From Peronospora farinosa (Eukaryota; Oomycota; Peronosporomycetes; Peronosporales; Peronosporaceae), in assembly GCA_947646735.1 (NCBI GenBank), contig CANTFK010000976.1, positions 124,001 through 188,000 on the forward strand: 64,000 nt of DNA, written 5' to 3'. The notes beneath the pieces were generated by a model that was not told where the DNA came from, did no database searches, and saw nothing but the letters and a program-made list of their open reading frames with translations. Every line of letters starts with the position of its first letter. The first letter of the stretch is position 1. Below are positions 48,276 through 64,000 of this stretch, piece after piece. Made by a program: the position numbers and the translations under genes.

Positions 48276-50150
48276 CTAGACTGGCGTTGGCGTGGTCGAG
48301 TCAATAGAAGAGGCGTTAGAGAGGCTCGCGCCGGCGCCATCGCATGTATTTAGCTTAGGACCTGTATCCTCTTCATACGCCCACGAAGCCAGTAAATTCA
48401 CCTCCACATCCGGTTGTGAGAAAGCCAATTTGACTTCTTTATCGTCCACGTTGCTCAGCGCAATGCACGCATGAGTAAACGCACAACGCAGTTGACTAAG
48501 TGCGCGTCTAGAACAGAGCATCCCCAGATCGCGTTCGGTCTCGACTGGGTCTTCCAGACAGAGTCGGGTGTCATTTCGACGAGACCAACCCTTGCTGGTC
48601 TTTGACATAATGTCGCCTGTGCGTAAGCTCACTACGGTGTGCTCGTAGTCGAACTCGCAAGCGTAGAAGCGGAAGAAGCCCCGTCGAAGTGCCAGCCAAT
48701 CTCGCACCTTAGTGTTTTGCTCGTTGACGAGTATAAACTTCTTCTCAGCCGCTTCGAGTCGTTTATCGATTTCATCGTCCGTCAGTGTATGTAGCGAAAC
48801 CTCATCTTCAACAACATATGCACTACAGTCAAGCACGGGTAGAACAGAAATACGTTGCAGGTAGTAGATAGCAAGCAGCATGAGTCCATACGAGCTCACG
48901 GCGTCACTAACCACACGCGCCTTGGCCCGACGCCACTTACGAAGCCAGTCACAGAATCGTCGCACATGTTGAAGCTGACGTTTTCGCTCTGAGGAATGTG
49001 CACCGACACCACCATACAAGAGCCATCGCAAAAGACGCGTGTTCCATAATGCAGAAACGTTGTTCACACAAAGGTCACATGGTAGATCGGTAGAAGGGTC
49101 CCAAAACTGCACAATAGGAATACGGGCTCCCGTGACTGCGATAATCCTGTGCTCAGTTTCGTCCGTGCGATCAGGTAAGAAATAAATCGACAAATGCTCC
49201 ATCACTTCAGTGACCAGAGACGCTGTTTCTTGGCAAAAATGTGGCGCTGACGGCAACAAAGCGCAGAGATCCACATCGGCAGGTTTTTGATCATCATCGT
49301 CGGGATCTGACAAAAGACCAGTGACTGAAGAACCAAATATTGTGACACGTGCATCTGGCCACATCAGACGAAGCACATTCTCCACACGATGAGCCGCTTG
49401 TTTTCGACGCTGTAGCTCCTTTTCTTTATCTTGATCAGCCCTTAAGAACGCCTCCTCCTCCTCATTTTCGAAGGCTACGTTAACAGAATCAACACTGATC
49501 TGATCAGCAAATGCTCGTGCATACATTGGCACAAAATAGAGCAATTTTCCTGTCTGCAGACATTGCGTCACTAAAGCACGTTGCAATTTCCGAGCTCGTT
49601 CCTTCTTGTCGTACATCTTGGCATCATTAGAGGCTGTCGGATGCAGCATCAAGTGCACAGCTGCTTTCATCACTGTCTCGTCTTCTTTCTTCTCTTGTAA
49701 CTGCAATACCCACGGCCATAGAAACTGTTCCAGACGTTCACGAATTGCTAGTGTGTCTTCCTCCAATTCCACCAGAAATCGCGCCAATAAGAGCGGAGAA
49801 ATCGTCCAACCAGACGAAAAAACAGCCACTAATTCGTCTCCTCGTACATTCAGACGCTTTGTATAATGTGCCGCTGCTTTCGGGGCCTTATGTTCTGTCA
49901 GAATCACACGGACGACAACTGTCCGTGCTTCAAGTGTCCCAATTTGAAGGGCGAGACTTTGCGCGGTGTCCCATTCGTGACTAGAGCGGCTTTGCAGGAC
50001 GTTGTGCAAAGTATCAATAGATACAGTTACGGGGTTTGATCGAGCCAAACGCTCGGTCTTTGACTTGCGACGTCCTCGTCTCTTCTTCTTGCACTTCGGA
50101 GCTGCTGCTGCTGGTGCTGGTGATTCACCGTGGCGCTTCATTCTGGACAA
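48276..50150 (-). CDS. Non-canonical poly(A)/poly(U) polymerase (Cid1/TRF-type nucleotidyltransferase)
   Basis: 624 residues. An N-terminal basic leader (KCKKKRRGRRKSKTERLARS) suggests nuclear or nucleolar targeting. A helical region follows, then the polymerase-beta fold: VTIFGSSVTGL near residue 268, ADVDLCALLP near 290 (the two catalytic Asp), and the third Asp in LPCDLCVNN near 355. The PAP-associated domain is marked by SSYGLMLLAIYYLQ and, near the end, CLEDPVETERDLG, the Cid1-family IEDPF-like block. It would add A or U residues to the 3' ends of RNA for decay or surveillance. The VFENEEEEAFLRADQDKEKE linker is acidic. A or U specificity cannot be told. Confidence 0.85.
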   Translation of the reverse strand: MSRMKRHGESPAPAAAAPKCKKKRRGRRKSKTERLARSNPVTVSIDTLHNVLQSRSSHEWDTAQSLALQIGTLEARTVVVRVILTEHKAPKAAAHYTKRLNVRGDELVAVFSSGWTISPLLLARFLVELEEDTLAIRERLEQFLWPWVLQLQEKKEDETVMKAAVHLMLHPTASNDAKMYDKKERARKLQRALVTQCLQTGKLLYFVPMYARAFADQISVDSVNVAFENEEEEAFLRADQDKEKELQRRKQAAHRVENVLRLMWPDARVTIFGSSVTGLLSDPDDDDQKPADVDLCALLPSAPHFCQETASLVTEVMEHLSIYFLPDRTDETEHRIIAVTGARIPIVQFWDPSTDLPCDLCVNNVSALWNTRLLRWLLYGGVGAHSSERKRQLQHVRRFCDWLRKWRRAKARVVSDAVSSYGLMLLAIYYLQRISVLPVLDCSAYVVEDEVSLHTLTDDEIDKRLEAAEKKFILVNEQNTKVRDWLALRRGFFRFYACEFDYEHTVVSLRTGDIMSKTSKGWSRRNDTRLCLEDPVETERDLGMLCSRRALSQLRCAFTHACIALSNVDDKEVKLAFSQPDVEVNLLASWAYEEDTGPKLNTCDGAGASLSNASSIDSTTPTPV

Positions 50151-50930
50151 GTGAATGAAAGTGATTGGCTGAAAAGCAGTTCATACAAAATGTATATTGT
50201 ATTGCAGGACAGATCAATTATAGCCAGTGGAACCTGTTTAAATGAATACTCAAAGGGTGCCGATGATTCGAAACGAAAGATCCGGTAAGACTGAGCTGTT
50301 CTTGGAGAATGACGTCACGATGGGAATTGCTAGACAAAGCGTGATATAGAATAGTATTAGAAAGAGCTACGGGCTTTCGTACTGTCGTTTTAAAGGTCCA
50401 TTGTGGTGTTTGCCCATCTGTTCTTCACTGCAAAGCAAAAAGGAGAGCACATTGGAGCTGACATCTGTGGCAAAGACGTCCACAAATACGACAAAGATGG
50501 TGTCTCACCGAAAATTAAAGGCCAATTGTGAGAACCATTGTGCGATTAGGACGCGATTCTCCGCCGTCTCAAGTTATTGTAACTGTTTGTGGAATTATTG
50601 GCGGAGTGAAGTAGGGCTTGATAACATATAGAACAACGGTATTCGAGCTAGCCGCCCACCGAAATGTAAGGGCGGTCTCACCGTATGAAGCAATCCAATT
50701 GCAGGGGAGCTGGATCATGGACACCATCACGAGAAAACTGCTCCTTCCAATAAATGTGCCCAGTTTTGTCGCATCTGGTCTCACCATCCAAAGCTTGGCG
50801 GTAGATTATACGCGAGGTATCCAGTTTGAGCTCCTCAACCTCATCCTATCTACTTGTGCTGTTAGCCTCCTCAAATTACAATTCTCGTCCAACAGCAGAA
50901 GTCATTAAGTCGCATTGTCACCGTTCGTCA
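50151..50930. other. Intergenic, no gene seen
   Basis: Between the divergent nucleotidyltransferase gene and the secreted acidic protein. An open frame upstream of 50931 is continuous with that gene, but the signal peptide fixes the start at 50931. Confidence 0.45.
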
Positions 50931-51479
50931 ATGCGTTTCTACTACGTCGCACTAGTTGCTGCTTCTGCATTATATACAAGCATTGATGGTGTTCAGGCTG
51001 TTCCCAGCGTGGCCGTGCCCACTTCGCTCAGAGGGACCACCAACAACATACCGCTGTCCAACGGCGAAGAGATGACCAACCGTTTTTTGATTGCCGAAGA
51101 TGAAACAATTGACGATGATCCGTTGCCAGAGAGAAGTATCAAAAGTTTAAAAAAGATAGGAAAGAAGATAAACAAGGGAAGACGTCGAGAAGAAAACGAA
51201 GAAGAAAACGAAGAAGAAAACGAAGAAGAAGACAGCATCAACCCTGAATCTGAAGACGAATCTGACGACGAATTTGACGACGAATCTGATGACGAATCTG
51301 ACGACGAATCTGATGACGAATCTGACGACAAGGCTAACAACAAGTCTAACAATGAATATGTCAAAGCTGAAAAAACGGACAAAGATGACAAAGATGACAA
51401 ATACGACGACCCTGACGACTCTGACGATTCTGACCGTCGCCAACACCATCACTTTTTTGGCTTTCATCGCGGAGATTAA
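50931..51479 (+). CDS. Secreted acidic protein with a degenerate RxLR-like N-terminus (candidate effector)
   Basis: 182 residues from MRFYYVALVAASALYTSIDG, a clear signal peptide ending near VQA. The first mature residues contain TSLRGTTNN and then NRFLIAEDETIDDD and PLPER, in the place where oomycete host-translocated proteins carry RxLR and acidic EER motifs; here the motif is RFLI, so the match is degenerate. The rest is low complexity: NEEENEEENEEE, then SDDESDDE repeats, then KDDKDDKYDDPDD and a His-rich end. The acidic blocks come from 15- and 24-base repeats at the DNA level. It could be a decayed or divergent effector, or a secreted metal-binding or cell-wall protein. Confidence 0.65.
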   Translation: MRFYYVALVAASALYTSIDGVQAVPSVAVPTSLRGTTNNIPLSNGEEMTNRFLIAEDETIDDDPLPERSIKSLKKIGKKINKGRRREENEEENEEENEEEDSINPESEDESDDEFDDESDDESDDESDDESDDKANNKSNNEYVKAEKTDKDDKDDKYDDPDDSDDSDRRQHHHFFGFHRGD

Positions 51480-52311
51480 CTTTACTCCAAAGTGGTACTT
51501 ATTTGCTGATTGTTGGCTACCTCCTTTCTCTAGCTGACCGACCACAGGTTGCGCACGTACCTGGATTAACAGAATAATACACTTTTGACTTGCTTATCAT
51601 TGTAAGAGGTTTTGTGCTACTGAAATATTGTTCCCCCCAAAGTGTGGTGCCTCTGACCAAGGAAATACTTTAGTAAATCTATAAATGAGTACTTAATTTA
51701 CAAACGAGATGCTACAAAACGACGGTGCGAAAAGTAATATATATACTGTAGGAATCCTTATAAATTTTGATGCTGCCCGTCGTTTCGACGCATACGTGCG
51801 CGAATTCTCCGCGGATAGTATATTGGCCCATCATTTTACCTTATTTTATATTTAGTTTAATAAAGTAAATTGATACATTTGAAAGTCAATGTGTACCTGT
51901 CATTCCGACGGACATGGTGAGTAAAGTCTGCTTTTTGATATTCGTGCCCATCTATTAAATTTAGAATATTTGGTTGACTCTGATAAGTTAATATGTATGA
52001 TGCAATACATAGGGGTCACTTCGCTTTTTTGCAACTGAATCCAGTTCAACCTGATGACAACGCTTGCTCTTGCCATGTTCAAGTGTATTAATAAAGTACT
52101 GAGCTTATATTTTGAAACGAATCTAAAGCATGTGTTTCATTTAATATATAAGAAAATGCTGTGTTTGATGTAGCAATATATATCAAGGGTATGAAGGTTG
52201 ATGTGTACCCATCGTTTCGAGGATGTATTATATAAAAAAGCACGGAATACGAACACATGGGATGGACTATATTCTGTTATGCAAATCTGATTGGGTTATT
52301 ATCAATGCAGA
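51480..52311. other. AT-rich intergenic, repeat-like
   Basis: No coding signal. AT-rich with several short runs of TATATA. It marks the change from the gene-dense block to the repeat-rich right end. Confidence 0.5.
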
Positions 52312-52579
52312 ATGCAAAATCAGCCAATGCAAAACTAGCCAATAATGTAAAATTAGCTAATCCAAATGCCGGAGAAGGAGCACTACGGACGGACGGACTG
52401 ACAGGCGGACACAATTCGTTATCTTCTATATAATAAAAGAATTGTGTCCGTCCGTCCGTCCGTCTGTTCGTCCGTCCGTCCGTCTGTCCGTCCGTCCGTA
52501 GTGCTCCTTTTCCGGCATTCGGATTGGCTAATTTTGCATTATTGTCTAATTTTGCATTGGCTGATATTGTATTTTGCAT
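52312..52579. mobile_element. 268-bp foldback element (MITE-like inverted repeat with GGAC/GTCC arms)
   Basis: The left arm starts ATGCAAAAT at 52312 and the right arm ends ATTTTGCAT at 52579. Reading inward, both arms carry GCCAATGCAAAA, AATGCCGGA, AAGGAGCACTACGGACGG and GGACACAATTC in inverted order, with a short AT loop near 52419-52438. The right arm has an extended GTCC/GTCT microsatellite that the left lacks. No coding capacity and no obvious target-site duplication were seen. Confidence 0.75.
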
Positions 52580-53779
52580 AGATAATATTATAAGCTGATT
52601 TTTCGAATATATACTGTAGTAAAATTGCCTACGTCCATACTAATTGCGTAGAACATGCGTACCTATCGGTCGGAACGACTGGCAGATCTAAGTTCGGTTT
52701 GACGAATTTTGTAATATTAATGCGAGCAGGTCTCCGTTACAGAATTCAGCTTCGAAAGGCGGCAAAAAGCTGTTAAGACACCCTTTAATATAATTAAACT
52801 ATCTTTTATTTAATTAAAGAAAAGTATTTATCCGTTTGCCATCGTGCTTTTTCTAGGAATTCGAATTGACTGATTTTGCGTTTTATATTCATTCATATTT
52901 GCTAATATGCATTGAAAAACGTATTTGATCGATATATTTGGATGTCTGAAATATATAACGAATCTTATTTGTGAAATCTGATAGGGTGAAGTAAGATTAT
53001 TTGGAGTAAAAAGTACCTATGAGCCTGGGGACGACGTCCCATCGGTGGTGCAATGGTTTGCTTACCATGTATACAGGTCTGTGTAATGGGCACGGGCTCA
53101 ATACCCGCTGCCTGCCAAATCGGGCATATTGGAAATTTGGGTAGTTCTCTTAGTCGAACTTTGGGCTGCTTGCGGTAAACACTTTCGAGTGCTGTCGTGT
53201 GGTAGTCGTTACTTAACCCTTGCATGAAAACGAGAGTCCGTCCCCCAAGCTTGCTTGGGTCTCACACTGAATATCTTCTTCGGAAGGTGGATGGTAGTAG
53301 TGCTATAACGGTAGAAGCCGAAGGCGTAAAGGTCCGTAATAACGGTAGGGCCCGTGTCCCTTCAATATGACTTCGTAATAAGTGACGCAAATCGGCTTAA
53401 GCCGTGACCTCACACGGGCGCATTAGCATACCAATACGATTAATGAGGAAAAAACAAAGACCGATAAGCCAAATAGGCAGGTATAAACCAAAAGCGAATC
53501 TCCAAATCCTCTTCCTGAAAGGGTAAAGGTGTAAGGCAAAAACCACTTGCAAAGGCCAAAAGCCAACTACCAATACCCGCAAGGGTAAAGGCTATAGTCC
53601 GAACGTCTAAATACACTTGATTACCTAAATAATATTAAAAATGGTGTACGACCATCCTTTCATATATTTTAGGCATGTTGATTGGCCAACTTTATATTTT
53701 GCAATAACTGGTGTATGTCGCACTTTGCATTAAGATCTCTACTAAAGATTTAAGTCCTTACGTGGTGCTACAATTAAAG
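52580..53779. other. AT-rich intergenic with a possible SINE and unidentified repeat-like DNA
   Basis: A tRNA-promoter-like pair is listed separately. From about 53200 to 53640 lies moderately GC-rich sequence with phrases such as AACGGTAGAAGCCGAAGGCG, and no open frame of interest; it may be part of a transposon or LTR. No gene is recognised. Confidence 0.4.
53040..53220 (+). mobile_element. Possible tRNA-derived SINE head
   Basis: GGTGGTGCAATGG at 53044-53056 resembles a pol III A box, and GGGCTCAATACCCGC at 53094-53108 resembles a B box (GGTTCGANTCC-like, flanked by pairable GGG/CCC), about 50 bp apart as in tRNAs. The surrounding sequence does not fold into an obvious full tRNA and continues into an unrelated body, which is how tRNA-derived SINEs look. 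Confidence 0.35.
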
Positions 53780-54196
53780 ATGGAAAGCCCACGGTCGCGC
53801 CGAAATCGTCTTGCCTGGGAGCGACGTTCTCGGCAGCGTGCCAAGGAGACGGAAGAACAGCGAGCCGCACTACGGCAAGAAGCGCGCCGTGCGCAACGCA
53901 CCCGGCGGCGACAATATAAGAACGTGGCAGCAGAGCGCGAGCGCAACCGAGTGGCGCACGCGGCACGACGAGCCGAAATGAGCCACGAAGATGCAACGCT
54001 TGAGCGCGAGCGCAACCGAGCGAGGCAGGCGGCACGACGAGCCGAAATCAGCCACGAAGATGCAACGCTTGAGCGCGAGCGCAACCGAGTGGCGCACGCG
54101 GCACGACGAGCCGAAATGATCCACGAAGATGCAACGCTTGAGCGCGAGCGCAACCGAGTGGCGCACGCGGCACGACGAGCCGAAATGACACGCTAA
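53780..54196 (+). CDS. Short STPR-type basic protein at the head of the array
   Basis: 138 residues from ATG 53780 to TAA 54194-54196. The first half is very basic and reads as worn 23-residue repeats (KETEEQRAALRQEARRAQRT), then perfect units begin with ERERNR and AHAARRAE and run to AARRAEMTR and a stop. STPR (score and three peptide repeat) proteins such as silkworm FMBP-1 bind DNA through tandem 23-residue units of this composition; the match in length and Arg/Glu/Ala pattern is by eye. An ATG at 53711 in the same frame gives a longer N-terminus. No helicase or transposase is seen upstream. Whether it is expressed is unknown. Confidence 0.5.
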   Translation: MESPRSRRNRLAWERRSRQRAKETEEQRAALRQEARRAQRTRRRQYKNVAAERERNRVAHAARRAEMSHEDATLERERNRARQAARRAEISHEDATLERERNRVAHAARRAEMIHEDATLERERNRVAHAARRAEMTR

Positions 54197-54253
54197 GACG
54201 CAACGCTTGAGCGCGAGCGCAACCGAGCGAGGCACGCGGCACGACGAGCCGAA

Positions 54254-57200
54254 ATGACCCACGAAGATGCAACGCTTGAGCGCGAGCGCAACCGAGTGGC
54301 GCACGCGGCACGACGAGCCGAAATGAGCCACGAAGATGCAACGCTTGAGCGCGAGTGCAACCGAGTGGGGCACGCGGCACGACGTACCGAAATGACCCAC
54401 GAAGATGCAACGCTTGAGCGCGAGCGCAACCGAGCGAGGCACGCGGCACGACGAGCCGAAATCAGCCACGAAGATGCAACGCTTGAGCGCGAGCGCAACC
54501 GAGCGAGGCACGCAGCACGACGAGCCGAAATCAGCCACGAAGATGCAACGCTTGAGCGCGAGCGCAACCGAGTGGCGCACGCGGAACGAAGAGCCGAAAT
54601 GAGCCACGAAGATGCAACGCTTGAACGCGAGCGCGACCGAGTGGCGCACGCGGCACGACGAGCCGAAATGAGCCACGAAGATGCAACGCTTGAGCGCGAG
54701 CGCAACCGAGCGAAGCACGCGGCACGACGAGCCGAAATGAGCCACGAAGATGCAACGCTTGAGCGCGAGCGCAACCGCGTGGCGCACGCGGCACGACGAG
54801 CCGAAATGAGCCACGAAGATGCAACGCTTGAGCGCGAGCGCAACCGAGTGGCGCACGCGGCACGAAGAGCCGAAATGAGCCACGAAGATGCAACGCTTGA
54901 GCGCGAGCGCAACCGAGTGGCGCACGCGGCACGACGAGCCGAAATGAGCCACGAAGATGCAACGCTTGAGCGCGAGCGCAACCGAGCGAAGCACGCGGCA
55001 CGACGAGCCGAAATGAGCCACGAAGATGCAACGCTTGAGCGCGAGCGCAACCGAGCGAGGCACGCGGCACGACGAGCCGAAATGAGCCACGAAGATGCAA
55101 CGCTTGAGCGCGAGCGCAACCGAGCGAGGCACGCGGAACGACGAGCCGAAATGAGCCACGAAGATGCAACGCTTGAGCGCGAGCGCAACCGAGCGAAGCA
55201 CGCGGCACGACGAGCCGAAATGAGCCACGAAGATGCAACGCTTGAGCGCGAGCGCAACCGAGCGAAGCACGCGGCACGACGAGCCGAAATGAGCCACGAA
55301 GATGCAACGCTTGAGAGCGAGCGCAACCGAGTGGCGCACGCGGCACGACGAGCCGAAATGACCCACGAAGATGCAACGCTTGAGCGCGAGCGCAACCGAG
55401 CGAGGCACGCGGCACGACGAGCCGAAATGAGCCACGAAGATGCAACGCTTGAGCGCGAGCGCAACCGAGCGAGGCACGCGGCACGACGAGCCGAAATGAG
55501 CCACGAAGATGCAACGCTTGAGCGCGAGCGCAACCGAGCGAGGCACGCGGCACGACGAGCCGAAATGACCCACGAAGATGCAACGCTTGAGCGCGAGCGC
55601 AACCGAGCGAGCGCACGCGGCACGACGAGCCGAAATGAGCCACGAAGATGCAACGCTTGAGCGCGAGCGCAACCGAGCGAGGCACGCGGCACGACGAGCC
55701 GAAATGAGCCACGAAGATGCAACGCTTGAGCGCGAGCGCAACCGAGCGAGGCACGCGGCACGACGAGCCGAAATGAGCCACGAAGATGCAACGCTTGAGC
55801 GCGAGCGCAACCGAGCGAGGCACGCGGCACGACGAGCCGAAATCAGCCACGAAGATGCAACGCTTGAGCGCGAGCGCAACCGAGCGAGGCACGCGGCACG
55901 ACGAGCCGAAATGAGCCACGAAGATGCAACGCTTGAGAGCGAGCGCAACCGAGTGGCGCACGCGGCACGACGAGCCGAAATGACCCACGAAGATGCAACG
56001 CTTGAGCGCGAGGCAACCGAGCGAAGCACGCGGCACGACGAGCCGAAATGAGCCACGAAGATGCAACGCTTGAGCGCGAGCGCAACCGAGCGAGGCACGC
56101 GGCACGACGAGCCGAAATGAGCCACGAAGATGCAACGCTTGAGCGCGAGCGCAACCGAGCGAGGCACGCGGCACGACGAGCCGAAATGACCCACGAAGAT
56201 GCAACGCTTGAGCGCGAGCGCAACCGAGCGAGGCACGCGGCACGACGAGCCGAAATCAGCCACGAAGATGCAACGCTTGAGCGCGAGCGCAACCGAGTGG
56301 CGCACGCGGCACGACGAGCCGAAATGAGCCACGAAGATGCAACGCTTGAGCGCGAGCGCAACCGAGTGAGCGCACGCGGCACGACGAGCCGAAATGACCC
56401 ACGAAGATGCAACGCTTGAGCGCGAGCGCAACCGAGCGAGGCACGCGGCACGACGAGCCGAAATGAGCCACGAAGATGCAACGCTTGAGCGCGAGCGCAA
56501 CCGAGTGGCGCACGCGGCACGACGAGCCGAAATGACCACGAAGATGCAACGCTTGAGCGCGAGCGCAACCGAGCGAGGCACGCGGCACGACGAGCCGAAA
56601 TGAGCCACGAAGATGCAACGCTTGAGCGCGAGCGCAACCGAGTGGCGCACGCGGCACGACGAGCCGAAATGAGCCACGAAGATGCAACGCTTGAGCGCGA
56701 GCGCAACCGAGCGAGGCACGCGGCACGACGAGCCGAAATGACCCACGAAGATGCAACGCTTGAGCGCGAGCGCAACCGAGTGGCGCACGCGGCACGACGA
56801 GCCGAAATCAGCCACGAAGATGCAACGCTTGAGCGCGAGCGCAACCGAGCGAGGCGCGCGGCACGACGTACCGAAATGACCCACGAAGATGCAACGCTTG
56901 AGCGCGAGCGCAACCGAGCGAGGCACGCGGCACGACGAGCCGAAATGACCCACGAAGATGCAACGCTTGAGCGCGAGCGCAACCGAGCGAGGCACGCAGC
57001 ACGACGAGCCGAAATCAGCCACGAAGATGCAACGCTTGAGCGCGAGCGCAACCGCGTGGCGCACGCGGCACGACGAGCCGAAATGACCCACGAAGATGCA
57101 ACGCTTGAGAGCGAGCGCAACCGAGTGGCGCACGCGGCACGACGAGCCGAAATGACCCACGAAGATGCAACGCTTGAGCGCGAGTGCAACCGAGCGAAGC

Positions 57201-60200
57201 ACGCGGCACGACGAGCCGAAATGAGCCACGAAGATGCAACGCTTGAGCGCGAGCGCAACCGCGTGGCGCACGCGGCACGACGAGCCGAAATGAGCCACGA
57301 AGATGCAACGCTTGAGCGCGAGCGCAACCGAGCGAGGCACGCGGCACGACGAGCCGAAATGACCCACGAAGATGCAACGCTTGAGCGCGAGCGCAACCGA
57401 GCGAGGCACGCGGCACGACGAGCCGAAATCAGCCACGAAGATGCAACGCTTGAGCGCGAGCGCAACCGCGTGGAGCACGCGGCACGACGAGCCGAAATGA
57501 GCCACGAAGATGCAACGCTTGAGAGCGAGCGCAACCGAGTGGCGCACGCGGCACGACGAGCCGAAATGACCCACGAAGATGCAACGCTTGAGCGCAAGTG
57601 CAACCGAGCGAGGCACGCGGCACGACGAGCCGAAATGAGCCACGAAGATGCAACGCTTGAGAGCGAGCGCAACCGAGCGAGGCACGCGGCACGACGAGCC
57701 GAAATGAGCCACGAAGATGCAACGCTTGAGCGCGAGCGCAACCGAGCGAGGCACGCGGCACGACGAGCCGAAATGAGCCACGAAGATGCAACGCTTGAGC
57801 GCGAGCGCAACCGAGTGGCGCACGCGGCACGACGAGACGAAATGAGCCACGAAGATGCAACGCTTGAGCGCGAGCGCAACCGAGTGGCGCACGCGGCACG
57901 ACGAGCCGAAATGAGCCACGAAGATGCAACGCTTGAGCGCGAGCGCAACCGAGCGAGCGCACGCGGCACGACGAGCCGAAATGAGCCACGAAGATGCAAC
58001 GCTTGAGCGCGAGTGCAACCGAGCGAAGCACGCGGCACGACGAGCCGAAATGAGCCACGAAGATGCAACGCTTGAGCGCGAGCGCAACCGCGTGGCGCAC
58101 GCGGCACGACGAGCCGAAATGAGCCACGAAGATGCAACGCTTGAGCGCGAGCGCAACCGAGTGGCGCACGCGGCACGACGAGCCGAAATGAGCCACGAAG
58201 ATGCAACGCTTGAGAGCGAGCGCAACCGAGTGGCGCACGCGGCACGACGAGCCGAAATGAGCCACGAAGATGCAACGCTTGAGCGCGAGCGCAACCGAGT
58301 GGCGCACGCGGCACGACGAGCCGAAATGACCCACGAAGATGCAACGCTTGAGCGCGAGTGCAACCGAGCGAAGCACGCGGCACGACGAGCTGAAATGAGC
58401 CACGAAGATGCAACGCTTGAGCGCGAGCGCAACCGCGTGGCGCACGCGGCACGACGAGCCGAAATGACCCACGAAGATGCAACGCTTGAGCGCGAGTGCA
58501 ACCGAGCGAAGCACGCGGCACGACGAGCCGAAATGACCCACGAAGATGCAACGCTTGAGCGCGAGCGCAACCGAGCGAGGCACGCGGCACGACGAGCCGA
58601 AATGAGCCACGAAGATGCAACGCTTGAGCGCGAGCGCAACCGCGTGGCGCACGCGGCACGACGAGCCGAAATGACCCACGAAGATGCAACGCTTGAGCGC
58701 GAGTGCAACCGAGCGAAGCACGCGGCACGACGAGCCGAAATCAGCCACGAAGATGCAACGCTTGAGCGCGAGCGCAACCGAGTGGCGCACGCGGCACGAC
58801 GAGCCGAAATGAGCCACGAAGATGCAACGCTTGAGCGCGAGCGCAACCGAGTGGCGCACGCGGCACGACGAGCCGAAATGAGCCACGAAGATGCAACGCT
58901 TGAGAGCGAGCGCAACCGAGTGGCGCACGCGGCACGACGAGCCGAAATGAGCCACGAAGATGCAACGCTTGAGCGCGAGTGCAACCGAGCGAAGCACGCG
59001 GCACGACGAGCCGAAATGAGCCACGAAGATGCAACGCTTGAGCGCGAGCGCAACCGAGTGGCGCACGCGGCACGACGAGCCGAAATGAGCCACGAAGATG
59101 CAACGCTTGAGCGCGAGCGCAACCGAGTGGCGCACGCGGCACGACGAGCCGAAATGACACGCTAAGACGCAACGCTTGAGAGCGAGCGCAACCGAGCGAG
59201 GCACGCGGCACGACGAGCCGAAATGACCCACGAAGATGCAACGCTTGAGCGCGAGCGCAACCGAGTGGCGCACGCGGCACGACGAGCCGAAATGACCCAC
59301 GAAGATGCAACGCTTGAGCGCGAGCGCAACCGAGTGGCGCACGCGGCACGACGAGCCGAAATCAGCCACGAAGATGCAACGCTTGAGAGCGAGCGCAACC
59401 GAGCGAGGCGCGCGGCACGACGTACCGAAATGACCCACGAAGATGCAACGCTTGAGCGCGAGCGCAACCGAGCGAGGCACGCGGCACGACGAGCCGAAAT
59501 CAGCCACGAAGATGCAACGCTTGAGCGCGAGCGCAACCGAGCGAGGCACGCAGCACGACGAGCCGAAATCAGCCACGAAGATGCAACGCTTGAGCGCGAG
59601 CGCAACCGCGTGGCGCACGCGGCACGACGAGCCGAAATGACCCACGAAGATGCAACGCTTGAGAGCGAGCGCAACCGAGTGGCGCACGCGGCACGACGAG
59701 CCGAAATGACCCACGAAGATGCAACGCTTGAGCGCGAGTGCAACCGAGCGAAGCACGCGGCACGACGAGCCGAAATGAGCCACGAAGATGCAACGCTTGA
59801 GCGCGAGCGCAACCGCGTGGCGCACGCGGCACGACGAGACAAAATGAGCCACGAAGATGCAACGCTTGAGCGCGAGCGCAACCGAGCGAGGCGCGCGGCA
59901 CGACGTACCGAAATGACCCACGAAGATGCAACGCTTGAGAGCGAGCACAACCGAGCGAGGCACGCGGCACGACGAGCCGAAATGAGCCACGAAGATGCAA
60001 CGCTTGAGCGCGAGCGCAACCGAGTGGCGCACGCGGCACGACGAGCCGAAATGACCCACGAAGATGCAACGCTTGAGCGCGAGCGCAACCGAGTGGCGCA
60101 CGCGGCACGACGAGCCGAAATGACCCACGAAGATGCAACGCTTGAGCGCAAGTGCAACCGAGCGAGGCACGCGGCACGACGAGCCGAAATGACCCACGAA

Positions 60201-63200
60201 GATGCAACGCTTGAGCGCGAGCGCAACCGAGCGAGGCACGCGGCACGACGAGCCGAAATGAGCCACGAAGATGCAACGCTTGAGAGCGAGCGCAACCGAG
60301 TGACGCACGCGGCACGACGAGCCGAAATGACCCACGAAGATGCAACGCTTGAGCGCGAGTGCAACCGAGCGAAGCACGCGGCACGACGAGCCGAAATGAG
60401 CCACGAAGATGCAACGCTTGAGCGCGAGCGCAACCGCGTGGCGCACGCGGCACGACGAGACGAAATGAGCCACGAAGATGCAACGCTTGAGCGCGAGCGC
60501 AACCGAGCGAGGCGCGCGGCACGACGTACCGAAATGACCCACGAAGATGCAACGCTTGAGAGCGAGCACAACCGAGCGAGGCACGCGGCACGACGAGCCG
60601 AAATCAGCCACGAAGATGCAACGCTTGAGCGCGAGCGCAACCGCGTGGCGCACGCGGCACGACGAGCCGAAATGACCCACGAAGATGCAACGCTTGAGCG
60701 CGAGCGCAACCGAGTGGCGCACGCGGCACGACGAGCCGAAATGACCCACGAAGATGCAACGCTTGAGCGCAAGCGCAACCGAGCGAGGCACGCGGCACGA
60801 CGAGCCGAAATGACCCACGAAGATGCAACGCTTGAGCGCGAGCGCAACCGAGCGAGGCACGCGGCACGACGAGCCGAAATGAGCCACGAAGATGCAACGC
60901 TTGAGAGCGAGCGCAACCGAGTGGCGCACGCGGCACGACGAGCCGAAATCAGCCACGAAGATGCAACGCTTGAGCGCGAGTGCAACCGAGCGAAGCACGC
61001 GGCACGACGAGCCGAAATGACCCACGAAGATGCAACGCTTGAGCGCGAGCGCAACCGCGTGGCGCACGCGGCACGACGAGACGAAATGAGCCACGAAGAT
61101 GCAACGCTTGAGCGCGAGCGCAACCGAGCGAGGCGCGCGGCACGACGTAGCCGAAATGACCCACGAAGATGCAACGCTTGAGCGCGAGCGCAACCGAGCG
61201 AGGCACGCGGCACGACGAGCCGAAATGAGCCACGAAGATGCAACGCTTGAGCGCGAGCGCAACCGCGTGGCGCACGCGGCACGACGAGCCGAAATGACCC
61301 ACGAAGATGCAACGCTTGAGCGCGAGCGCAACCGAGTGGCGCACGCGGCACGACGAGCCGAAATGACCCACGAAGATGCAACGCTTGAGCGCAAGTGCAA
61401 CCGAGCGAGGCACGCGGCACGACGAGCCGAAATGACCCACGAAGATGCAACGCTTGAGAGCGAGCGCAACCGAGTGGCGCACGCGGCACGACGAGCCGAA
61501 ATGACCCACGAAGATGCAACGCTTGAGCGCAAGTGCAACCGAGCGAGGCACGCGGCACGACGAGCCGAAATCAGCCACGAAGATGCAACGCTTGAGCGCG
61601 AGCGCAACCGAGCGAGGCACGCAGCACGACGAGCCGAAATCAGCCACGAAGATGCAACGCTTGAGCGCGAGCGCAACCGCGTGGCGCACGCGGCACGACG
61701 AGCCGAAATGACCCACGAAGATGCAACGCTTGAGAGCGAGCGCAACCGAGTGGCGCACGCGGCACGACGAGCCGAAATGACCCACGAAGATGCAACGCTT
61801 GAGCGCGAGTGCAACCGAGCGAAGCACGCGGCACGACGAGCCGAAATGAGCCACGAAGATGCAACGCTTGAGCGCGAGCGCAACCGCGTGGCGCACGCGG
61901 CACGACGAGACAAAATGAGCCACGAAGATGCAACGCTTGAGCGCGAGCGCAACCGAGCGAGGCGCGCGGCACGACGTACCGAAATGACCCACGAAGATGC
62001 AACGCTTGAGAGCGAGCACTACCGAGCGAGGCACGCGGCACGACGAGCCGAAATCAGCCACGAAGATGCAACGCTTGAGCGCGAGCGCAACCGCGTGGCG
62101 CACGCGGCACGACGAGCCGAAATGACCCACGAAGATGCAACGCTTGAGCGCGAGCGCAACCGAGTGGCGCACGCGGCACGACGAGCCGAAATGACCCACG
62201 AAGATGCAACGCTTGAGCGCAAGTGCAACCGAGCGAGGCACGCGGCACGACGAGCCGAAATGACCCACGAAGATGCAACGCTTGAGCGCGAGCGCAACCG
62301 AGCGAGGCACGCGGCACGACGAGCCGAAATGAGCCACGAAGATGCAACGCTTGAGAGCGAGCGCAACCGAGTGGCGCACGCGGCACGACGAGCCGAAATG
62401 AGCCACGAAGATGCAACGCTTGAGCGCGAGCGCAACCGCGTGGCGCACGCGGCACGACGAGCCGAAATGACCCACGAAGATGCAACGCTTGAGAGCGAGC
62501 GCAACCGAGTGGCGCACGCGGCACGACGAGCCGAAATGACCCACGAAGATGCAACGCTTGAGCGCGAGTGCAACCGAGCGAAGCACGCGGCACGACGAGC
62601 CGAAATGAGCCACGAAGATGCAACGCTTGAGCGCGAGCGCAACCGCGTGGCGCACGCGGCACGACGAGACAAAATGAGCCACGAAGATGCAACGCTTGAG
62701 CGCGAGCGCAACCGAGCGAGGCGCGCGGCACGACGTACCGAAATGACCCACGAAGATGCAACGCTTGAGCGCGAGCGCAACCGAGCGAGGCACGCGGCAC
62801 GACGAGCCGAAATCAGCCACGAAGATGCAACGCTTGAGCGCGAGCGCAACCGCGTGGCGCACGCGGCACGACGAGCCGAAATGACCCACGAAGATGCAAC
62901 GCTTGAGCGCGAGCGCAACCGAGTGGCGCACGCGGCACGACGAGCCGAAATGACCCACGAAGATGCAACGCTTGAGCGCGAGCGCAACCGAGCGAGGCAC
63001 GCGGCACGACGAGCCGAAATGACCCACGAAGATGCAACGCTTGAGCGCGAGCGCAACCGAGCGAGGCACGCAGCACGACGAGCCGAAATCAGCCACGAAG
63101 ATGCAGCGCTTGAGCGCGAGCGCAACCGAGCGAGGCACGCGGCACGACGAGCCGAAATGACCCACGAAGATGCAACGCTTGAGAGCGAGCGCAACCGAGT

Positions 63201-64000
63201 GGCGCACGCGGCACGACGAGCCGAAATGACCCACGAAGATGCAACGCTTGAGCGCGAGTGCAACCGAGCGAAGCACGCGGCACGACGAGCCGAAATCAGC
63301 CACGAAGATGCAACGCTTGAGCGCGAGCGCAACCGCGTGGCGCACGCGGCACGACGAGACAAAATGACCCACGAAGATGCAACGCTTGAGCGCGAGTGCA
63401 ACCGAGCGAAGCACGCGGCACGACGAGCCGAAATCAGCCACGAAGATGCAACGCTTGAGCGCGAGCGCAACCGAGTGGCGCACGCGGCACGACGAGCCGA
63501 AATCAGCCACGAAGATGCAACGCTTGAGCGCGAGCGCAACCGCGTGGCGCACGCGGCACGACGAGCCGAAATGACCCACGAAGATGCAACGCTTGAGAGC
63601 GAGCGCAACCGAGTGGCGCACGCGGCACGACGAGCCGAAATGACCCACGAAGATGCAACGCTTGAGCGCGAGTGCAACCGAGCGAAGCACGCGGCACGAC
63701 GAGCCGAAATCAGCCACGAAGATGCAACGCTTGAGCGCGAGCGCAACCGCGTGGCGCACGCGGCACGACGAGACAAAATGAGCCACGAAGATGCAACGCT
63801 TGAGCGCGAGCGCAACCGAGCGAGGCACGCGGCACGACGTAGCCGAAATGACCCACGAAGATGCAACGCTTGAGCGCGAGCGCAACCGAGCGAGGCACGC
63901 GGCACGACGAGCCGAAATGACCCACGAAGATGCAACGCTTGAGCGCGAGTGCAACCGAGCGAGGCACGCGGCACGACGAGCCGAAATCAGCCACGAAGAT
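54254..64000 (+). pseudogene. Broken continuation of the STPR reading frame through the array
   Basis: Past the first stop the 23-residue frame runs in segments: 54254 to about 55608, about 55612 to 56012, 56048 to about 56368, about 56372 to 56532, 56600 to about 57953, about 57957 to 59165, 59223 to about 61146, about 61149 to 63838, and on to the edge. Each break is a stop or a single-base indel, and the frame returns with full-strength repeats after each one. If translated as separate proteins these would be up to about 900 residues of pure repeat. As one gene it is disrupted. Confidence 0.6.
59706..63156 (+). repeat. Nine-unit (621-bp) higher-order repeat inside the STPR array
   Basis: A run of nine distinct units in fixed order (variants marked ECNRAK, then RRDK/RRDE, RRAARRTE, SEHNRAR, RVAH, RVAH, RKCNRAR, RARH, SERNRVAH or RVTH) starts at 59706, repeats at 60327 and 60948, and again at 61777 and 62536 with insertions or losses. 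The marker AGCGCGAGTG recurs at 59731, 60352 and 60973, exactly 621 bp apart. Farther left the order is looser. Confidence 0.88.

Follow-up and report, generated by a model that had tools for sequence, protein, structure and literature searches.

Repeats in Helitrons and in 23-residue repeat proteins

Helitrons are rolling-circle DNA transposons that start with TC at their 5' end and finish with a hairpin followed by CTRR at their 3' end, and they insert between A and T without target duplication. Here, we describe a Helitron copy of the oomycete Peronospora farinosa in which a coding 69-bp repeat, located ahead of the replicase Rep domain in related copies, has reached about 393 units. It was detected at the end of a stretch of 64,000 nucleotides, hereafter designated as the window (forward strand of contig CANTFK010000976.1, assembly GCA_947646735.1), which corresponds to C257:124001-188000 in the genome that was searched (46.85 Mb, 274 contigs).

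Several described systems offer points of comparison. The zinc-finger array of PRDM9 is a coding minisatellite whose unit number shifts by recombination between units. The array described here is alike in its change of unit number, but differs by its hundreds of units, its location in a transposon gene and the loss of its reading frame. Among Helitrons, DINE-TR1 of Drosophila has central tandem repeats that became satellite DNA (Dias et al. 2015, cited in both PMC9659126 and PMC6947457). As far as these citing articles describe them, DINE-TR1 elements share with our locus the growth of internal tandem repeats into satellite-like arrays; in contrast to the coding repeat found here in a replicase gene, they are non-autonomous (PMC9659126). 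At the protein level, the passages of PMC4821344 dealing with the STPR domain report four tandem 23-residue repeats that are helix-rich on DNA in FMBP-1, and its occurrence in human ZNF821. The repeat of P. farinosa and the STPR of Bombyx FMBP-1 and human ZNF821 are alike in their 23-residue tandem period, their basic neighbourhood and their helix, which is predicted in our case. By description, which is the level at which the two were compared, FMBP-1 is a transcription factor with four repeats, whereas the present repeat belongs to a Helitron replicase.

A 69-bp array within a Helitron replicase gene

Tandem Repeats Finder (TRF) identified one 69-bp array in the window, on the plus strand at positions 53933-64000, with 145.9 copies and 93% matches. 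This agrees with the initial annotation, made from the window sequence, which had described a huge array of about 146 units reaching the window end. Its proposal that the array continued past this edge was borne out by the rest of the contig: wraparound alignment followed the units to C257:205073, equivalent to window position 81,073, for a full array of 27,141 bp and 393.4 units having 94.8% identity to the unit consensus. The contig stops 468 bp further, at window-equivalent 81,541, and there are no N bases in the window or in the rest-of-contig stretches spanning the array. Also as annotated, the unit encodes a 23-residue Arg/Glu/Ala peptide, and the majority unit ERERNRVAHAARRAEMTHEDATL is kept along the whole array. 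Genome-wide, a 29-nt unit pattern searched with up to three mismatches returned 404 matches (400 forward and 4 reverse), 391 of which fell inside the 27-kb array. An Rfam search of the window gave no match.

The array is attached to the short basic reading frame that had been noted earlier: the ATG at 53780 opens a basic N-terminal segment of 51 codons (53780..53932, plus strand), the start of the replicase frame, which is the same in sister copies and leads into the array. At the other end, the last unit runs in frame into VAHQQARAAEPDLPVARRAVLADAPTQRYVLNRADVVCRNCAALHWIQERVQAPGSTLANPQFSLCCERGKVANIPP..., a region that sister Helitrons have in front of their Rep domain. Similarity to these sister copies starts near 52,420 and extends to the contig end. 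The 5' part of the Helitron was thus delimited by sister-copy similarity to 52425..64000 (plus strand), with a continuation to at least window-equivalent 81,541, where the element is cut off. The 1153 bp before the array (window 52780-53932) have 97.2% DNA identity to the copy found on contig C178, and the 468-bp flank after the array 98.5%. In this C178 copy, Pfam searches recognised Helitron_like_N (E 1.2e-64), PIF1 (E 3.3e-77) and Pif1_2B (E 1.8e-19). The Rep-then-PIF1 domain order is present in sister copies, with a Cys/His-containing linker between the repeats and Rep, and these copies share with known Helitrons their Rep-helicase organization, a probable 5' end beginning with TC and, in C178 and one C270 copy, a 3' hairpin followed by CCCTAG. 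Across the genome, Helitron_like_N was matched 30 times, with 29 matches over cut-off, including one that passes only together with its neighbours. Judged by its sequence, the array is not a protein gene of its own, nor is it a free satellite; it forms part of a Helitron replicase gene.

We consider it very probable that this locus is a Helitron whose coding repeat has grown into a satellite of about 393 units in a defective copy, rather than a giant protein under selection. The replicase would be composed of a basic segment, 23-residue repeats, a linker, the Rep domain and a PIF1-like helicase; amplification would have occurred, at least in part, in an already disabled copy, and its outcome would be a satellite born from a coding minisatellite. 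The idea of a satellite formed by expansion of a coding repeat had already been put forward in the initial annotation and is retained here. That annotation had overlooked the broken frame as well as the Helitron replicase setting, which is visible only past the window edge and in sister copies.

Repeat numbers in sister copies and in a second subfamily

Among 11 stretches considered for counting, six sister copies (L011-L016) span the full distance between the common N-terminus and the common linker, while L017-L021 were dropped for want of one landmark. These six copies hold 5.39, 4.39, 8.39, 1.39, 2.33 and 1.39 units, versus 393.35 units for the window copy by the same landmarks. Units of sister copies are up to 98.6% identical to those of the array, with the same register and place, and the array therefore grew from the family's own units. 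Short repeat runs are the rule and, among the counted copies, only the one in the window exploded.

Nine of the loci with a Helitron_like_N match were translated (L022-L024, L026-L030 and L032). At least five of them form a second Helitron subfamily: L023 (C115), L024 (C185), L026 (C29), L028 (C258) and L029 (C88). They carry a 23-residue N-terminal repeat that is related to that of the array but distinct from it, with two to seven matches per locus among the matches listed, spaced by 23 residues (23 and 69 in L029). In the best register, 12 of the 23 residues of the second-subfamily unit are identical to those of the array unit; this value was reached in none of 20,000 shuffles, the best of which gave 11. 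A scan of viral contigs with a sister Rep protein yielded 11 pattern-matching stretches and no relative among them.

Growth of the array

The array comprises 114 distinct unit strings, 69 of which occur once. Exact multi-unit runs reach 8 units, versus maxima of 2-4 in 40 shuffles of the unit order, and the 14 runs of 5 or more units are scattered block duplications. Mean identity is 0.931 between adjacent units and 0.940-0.941 at lags 6, 9 and 11. These differences are small, but since neighbours are less alike than units 6, 9 and 11 apart, multi-unit blocks seem to have been copied rather than single units. A fixed higher-order repeat of one length was rejected, as no lag dominates (the best being 11 units, with 0.9408). 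Variant frequencies drift along the array, as illustrated by Ser at position 17 that passes from 0.75 to 0.07 and then to 0.35. Growth may thus have proceeded by duplication of multi-unit blocks, through unequal exchange or similar recombination between repeats; we infer that unequal exchange between misaligned repeats is its ordinary explanation.

Alternatively, the length of the array could be largely a product of the assembly, with a shorter run over-expanded or a longer one collapsed. The end of the contig so soon after the array is a sign of assembly trouble, 39% of the array 150-mers recur, and the sister copies have no more than 8.4 units. However, an array with so many distinct unit strings, in which exact repeats extend to 605 nt at most and no 700-mer occurs twice, contains no long duplicated stretch, and the drift in variant frequencies and the intact flanks on both sides also argue against such an artefact. 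Some error in array length is possible, but it is unlikely that most of it was created by the assembly.

Reading frame, defects and selection

Read from the ATG at 53780, the frame of the window copy ends after 138 codons with a stop at 54194..54196. The 69-nt unit that carries this stop, at 54140, has an identical copy at 59109 (stop at 59163). Seven single-base insertions or deletions occur at about 55612, 56012, 56371, 56535, 57958, 61148 and 63840, in addition to a 6-bp deletion near 66286. Several of these defects are shared between units. A 70-nt unit with a one-base insertion (55589..55658, plus strand) is found again, identical, at 57935, and another one (GACGTAGCC, 61110..61179, plus strand) has a counterpart at 63802 with the same insertion and one other base different. 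Disabled units were thus copied, and therefore at least part of the growth came when the frame no longer mattered, unless the shared insertions and deletions arose as recurrent assembly errors.

The spectrum of substitutions was examined by counting distinct single-site alleles. The 51 alleles, 14 of which are private to one unit, include 16 synonymous, 33 replacement and 2 stop-type changes, versus 13.9, 35.3 and 1.8, respectively, expected without selection when transitions are weighted 2:1. Of the two stop-type alleles, one creates actual stops, found in two units, and the other is a stop in the consensus codon only. The per-unit replacement-to-synonymous ratio, which is 2.5 times the expectation, was set aside because a few frequent shared alleles dominate it. 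Distinct substitutions fit neutrality. With a broken frame, copied broken units and neutral substitutions, amplification appears to have been of the satellite type, in a defective copy: the array behaves as satellite DNA derived from a transposon, a long array homogenised without protein constraint.

Several observations weigh against this interpretation. When each unit is read in its own phase, only 2 of the 394 contain a stop, which could be read as constraint. From 63782 (63782..64000 in the window, plus strand), a frame of 5,920 codons stays open as far as the contig end; its first Met codon is at 63,791, and it continues into the replicase linker. The shared insertions and deletions could in principle be repeated assembly errors instead of copied defects. 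The frame of the C178 copy is interrupted, and the sister copies used for comparison are likewise frame-interrupted in places. The Rep and helicase domains of the window copy itself are out of sight: the contig stops ahead of the Rep domain, and the 468-bp flank therefore gave no match in Pfam. Finally, the probable 5' end is preceded by T, whereas A is expected for Helitrons. As regards the long open frame and the scarcity of stops, they are taken as signs of youth and homogenisation, not of selection, because there are so few independent mutations.

The same two features would support a functional giant repeat protein, either STPR-like or an extended Helitron replicase, kept by selection. 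Yet a reading frame begun at the real N-terminus meets a stop after 138 codons and undergoes seven shifts, distinct alleles behave neutrally and disabled units were copied, all of which make such a protein highly improbable. A stand-alone giant STPR protein was set aside on account of the early stop, the frameshifts and the neutral allele spectrum. As for an unrelated satellite inserted into, or captured by, a Helitron, the genome has no comparable array and only 13 of the 404 unit-pattern matches lie outside this one, but the presence of closely similar units at the same place in sister Helitrons and the joins between array and flanks, which are as in sister copies, leave this explanation with next to no credit.

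Resemblance of the unit to STPR

With its tandem 23-residue period, the unit shares the periodicity of STPR, and it is basic. In a single-sequence model, the N-terminus and first units were predicted as one continuous helix from residue 4 to residue 136 (pLDDT 95.4, pTM 0.50). Searches of the unit against Pfam and NCBIfam returned nothing above cut-off, in libraries that may contain no STPR model, and comparison with solved structures of the Protein Data Bank gave no match to the repeat. Weak Pfam matches on the repeats, to AGO_N (E 0.0022, 18.6 bits for a cut-off of 25), Exonuc_VII_L and HTH_8, were all sub-cut-off and are taken as noise from charged helices.

In the part of PMC4821344 concerned with this domain, a Glu4-Arg9 salt bridge in each repeat is a hallmark of STPR. 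An E-x4-R pair occurs in the majority unit, whose register to STPR is not fixed, but also in 67% of its shuffles, and the second-subfamily unit has no such pair. Because of this frequency in shuffles and its absence from the second subfamily, the pair is no usable test. By analogy, it is a fair guess that an intact short run works like STPR. In intact elements, the short helical and basic run might be the module by which the replicase binds DNA or docks, a suggestion weaker than those made above for the array itself.

Helitron ends and neighbouring features

The probable 5' terminus of the element is TCTATATAATAAAAG (52425..52439, plus strand), with a possible alternative TC start at 52422. 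The base before TCTATATAATA is T; if the element starts with TCTTCTATA at 52422, the preceding base is A. The TCTATATAATAAAAG motif recurs on the 5' side of the C24 copy, and in C178 and C270 it comes immediately behind Helitron 3' ends. A CCGTCG...CGACGG hairpin and CCCTAG form the 3' end of the C178 copy and of one C270 copy (C270b). Elsewhere, the 3' end is CCCTGA in C116 and CCCTCG in the 437-447 kb region of C270; the latter, whose membership of the element is unsure, departs from the CTRR rule. Another 5' end follows three bases past the 3' end in C178, and immediately past it in the 437-447 kb stretch of C270. The 3' end of the window copy is off the contig. As far as they are seen, these ends resemble the Helitron pattern of a 5' TC and a 3' hairpin before CTRR.

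Just inside the 5' end of the Helitron, TRF detected a GTCC microsatellite (window 52445-52499), and other Helitron copies have shorter GTCCGTCC runs after their 5' terminus. It is conceivable that this microsatellite is a candidate binding target of the repeat module. The same region contains an inverted repeat (52283-52410 / 52474-52601) with 128-nt arms that are 85% complementary and 63 nt apart. Its left arm (52283-52410) looks like an inverted Helitron 5' end, as if a second Helitron were placed head to head, and the sequence from about 51765 to 52400 has matches at many other genomic sites, on the opposite strand. A tRNA-like stretch noticed by eye near 53,040 was discarded: ARAGORN detected no tRNA in the window, and these bases belong to the sequence common to the sister Helitrons. 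On contig C179, two Helitron_like_N pieces of equal scores (112381-112879 and 119140-119638) are on opposite strands about 6.4 kb apart, which suggests an inverted duplication.

Upstream of the Helitron, a 624-aa frame on the minus strand (48276-50150) has two Pfam matches, one to a poly(A) polymerase palm domain of the mitochondrial type (E 5.1e-23) and the other to a PAP-associated domain of the Cid1 type (E 1.3e-16). A 217-aa frame on the plus strand (50826-51479) has a hydrophobic stretch near its second Met, Glu/Asn and Glu/Ser/Asp repeats, and 12-bp tandem repeats at 51188-51329. It has no Pfam match above cut-off, and its sequence looks like that of an acidic protein of small size that is secreted. 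The genome has at least 22 matches to the elicitin domain, versus none in 14 control genomes, in support of an oomycete source; to our knowledge, elicitins are confined to oomycetes. Four of these matches, in C119 (two places), C120 and C151, have the same score (73.1 bits) and the same frame length (242 aa), and are either recent duplicates or separately assembled haplotypes.

Significance of a coding repeat probably turned satellite

Satellite growth from Helitron repeats is already known from non-autonomous Drosophila elements; in the present case, the source would be a coding repeat in a replicase gene. No account of such Helitron N-terminal repeats was found among the open-licence PubMed Central papers listed by the searches, and an earlier mention in print is possible. 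A broader scenario can be drawn by analogy, in which the replicase N-terminus would be an STPR-like helical DNA-binding module encoded by a minisatellite, whose copy number would tune the recognition of the GTCC-rich element ends and which would sometimes escape to a satellite, as in the window copy, the animal STPR of FMBP-1 and ZNF821 being domesticated pieces of such replicases. We regard this scenario as quite doubtful.

A single genome thus displays, at the same place of the same gene, coding runs of few units (1.4 to 8.4) and an array of satellite size (about 393 units), and sister genes are available for comparison with the exploded copy. These sequences also point to a candidate N-terminal repeat module of Helitron replicases, which may have a role in DNA binding.

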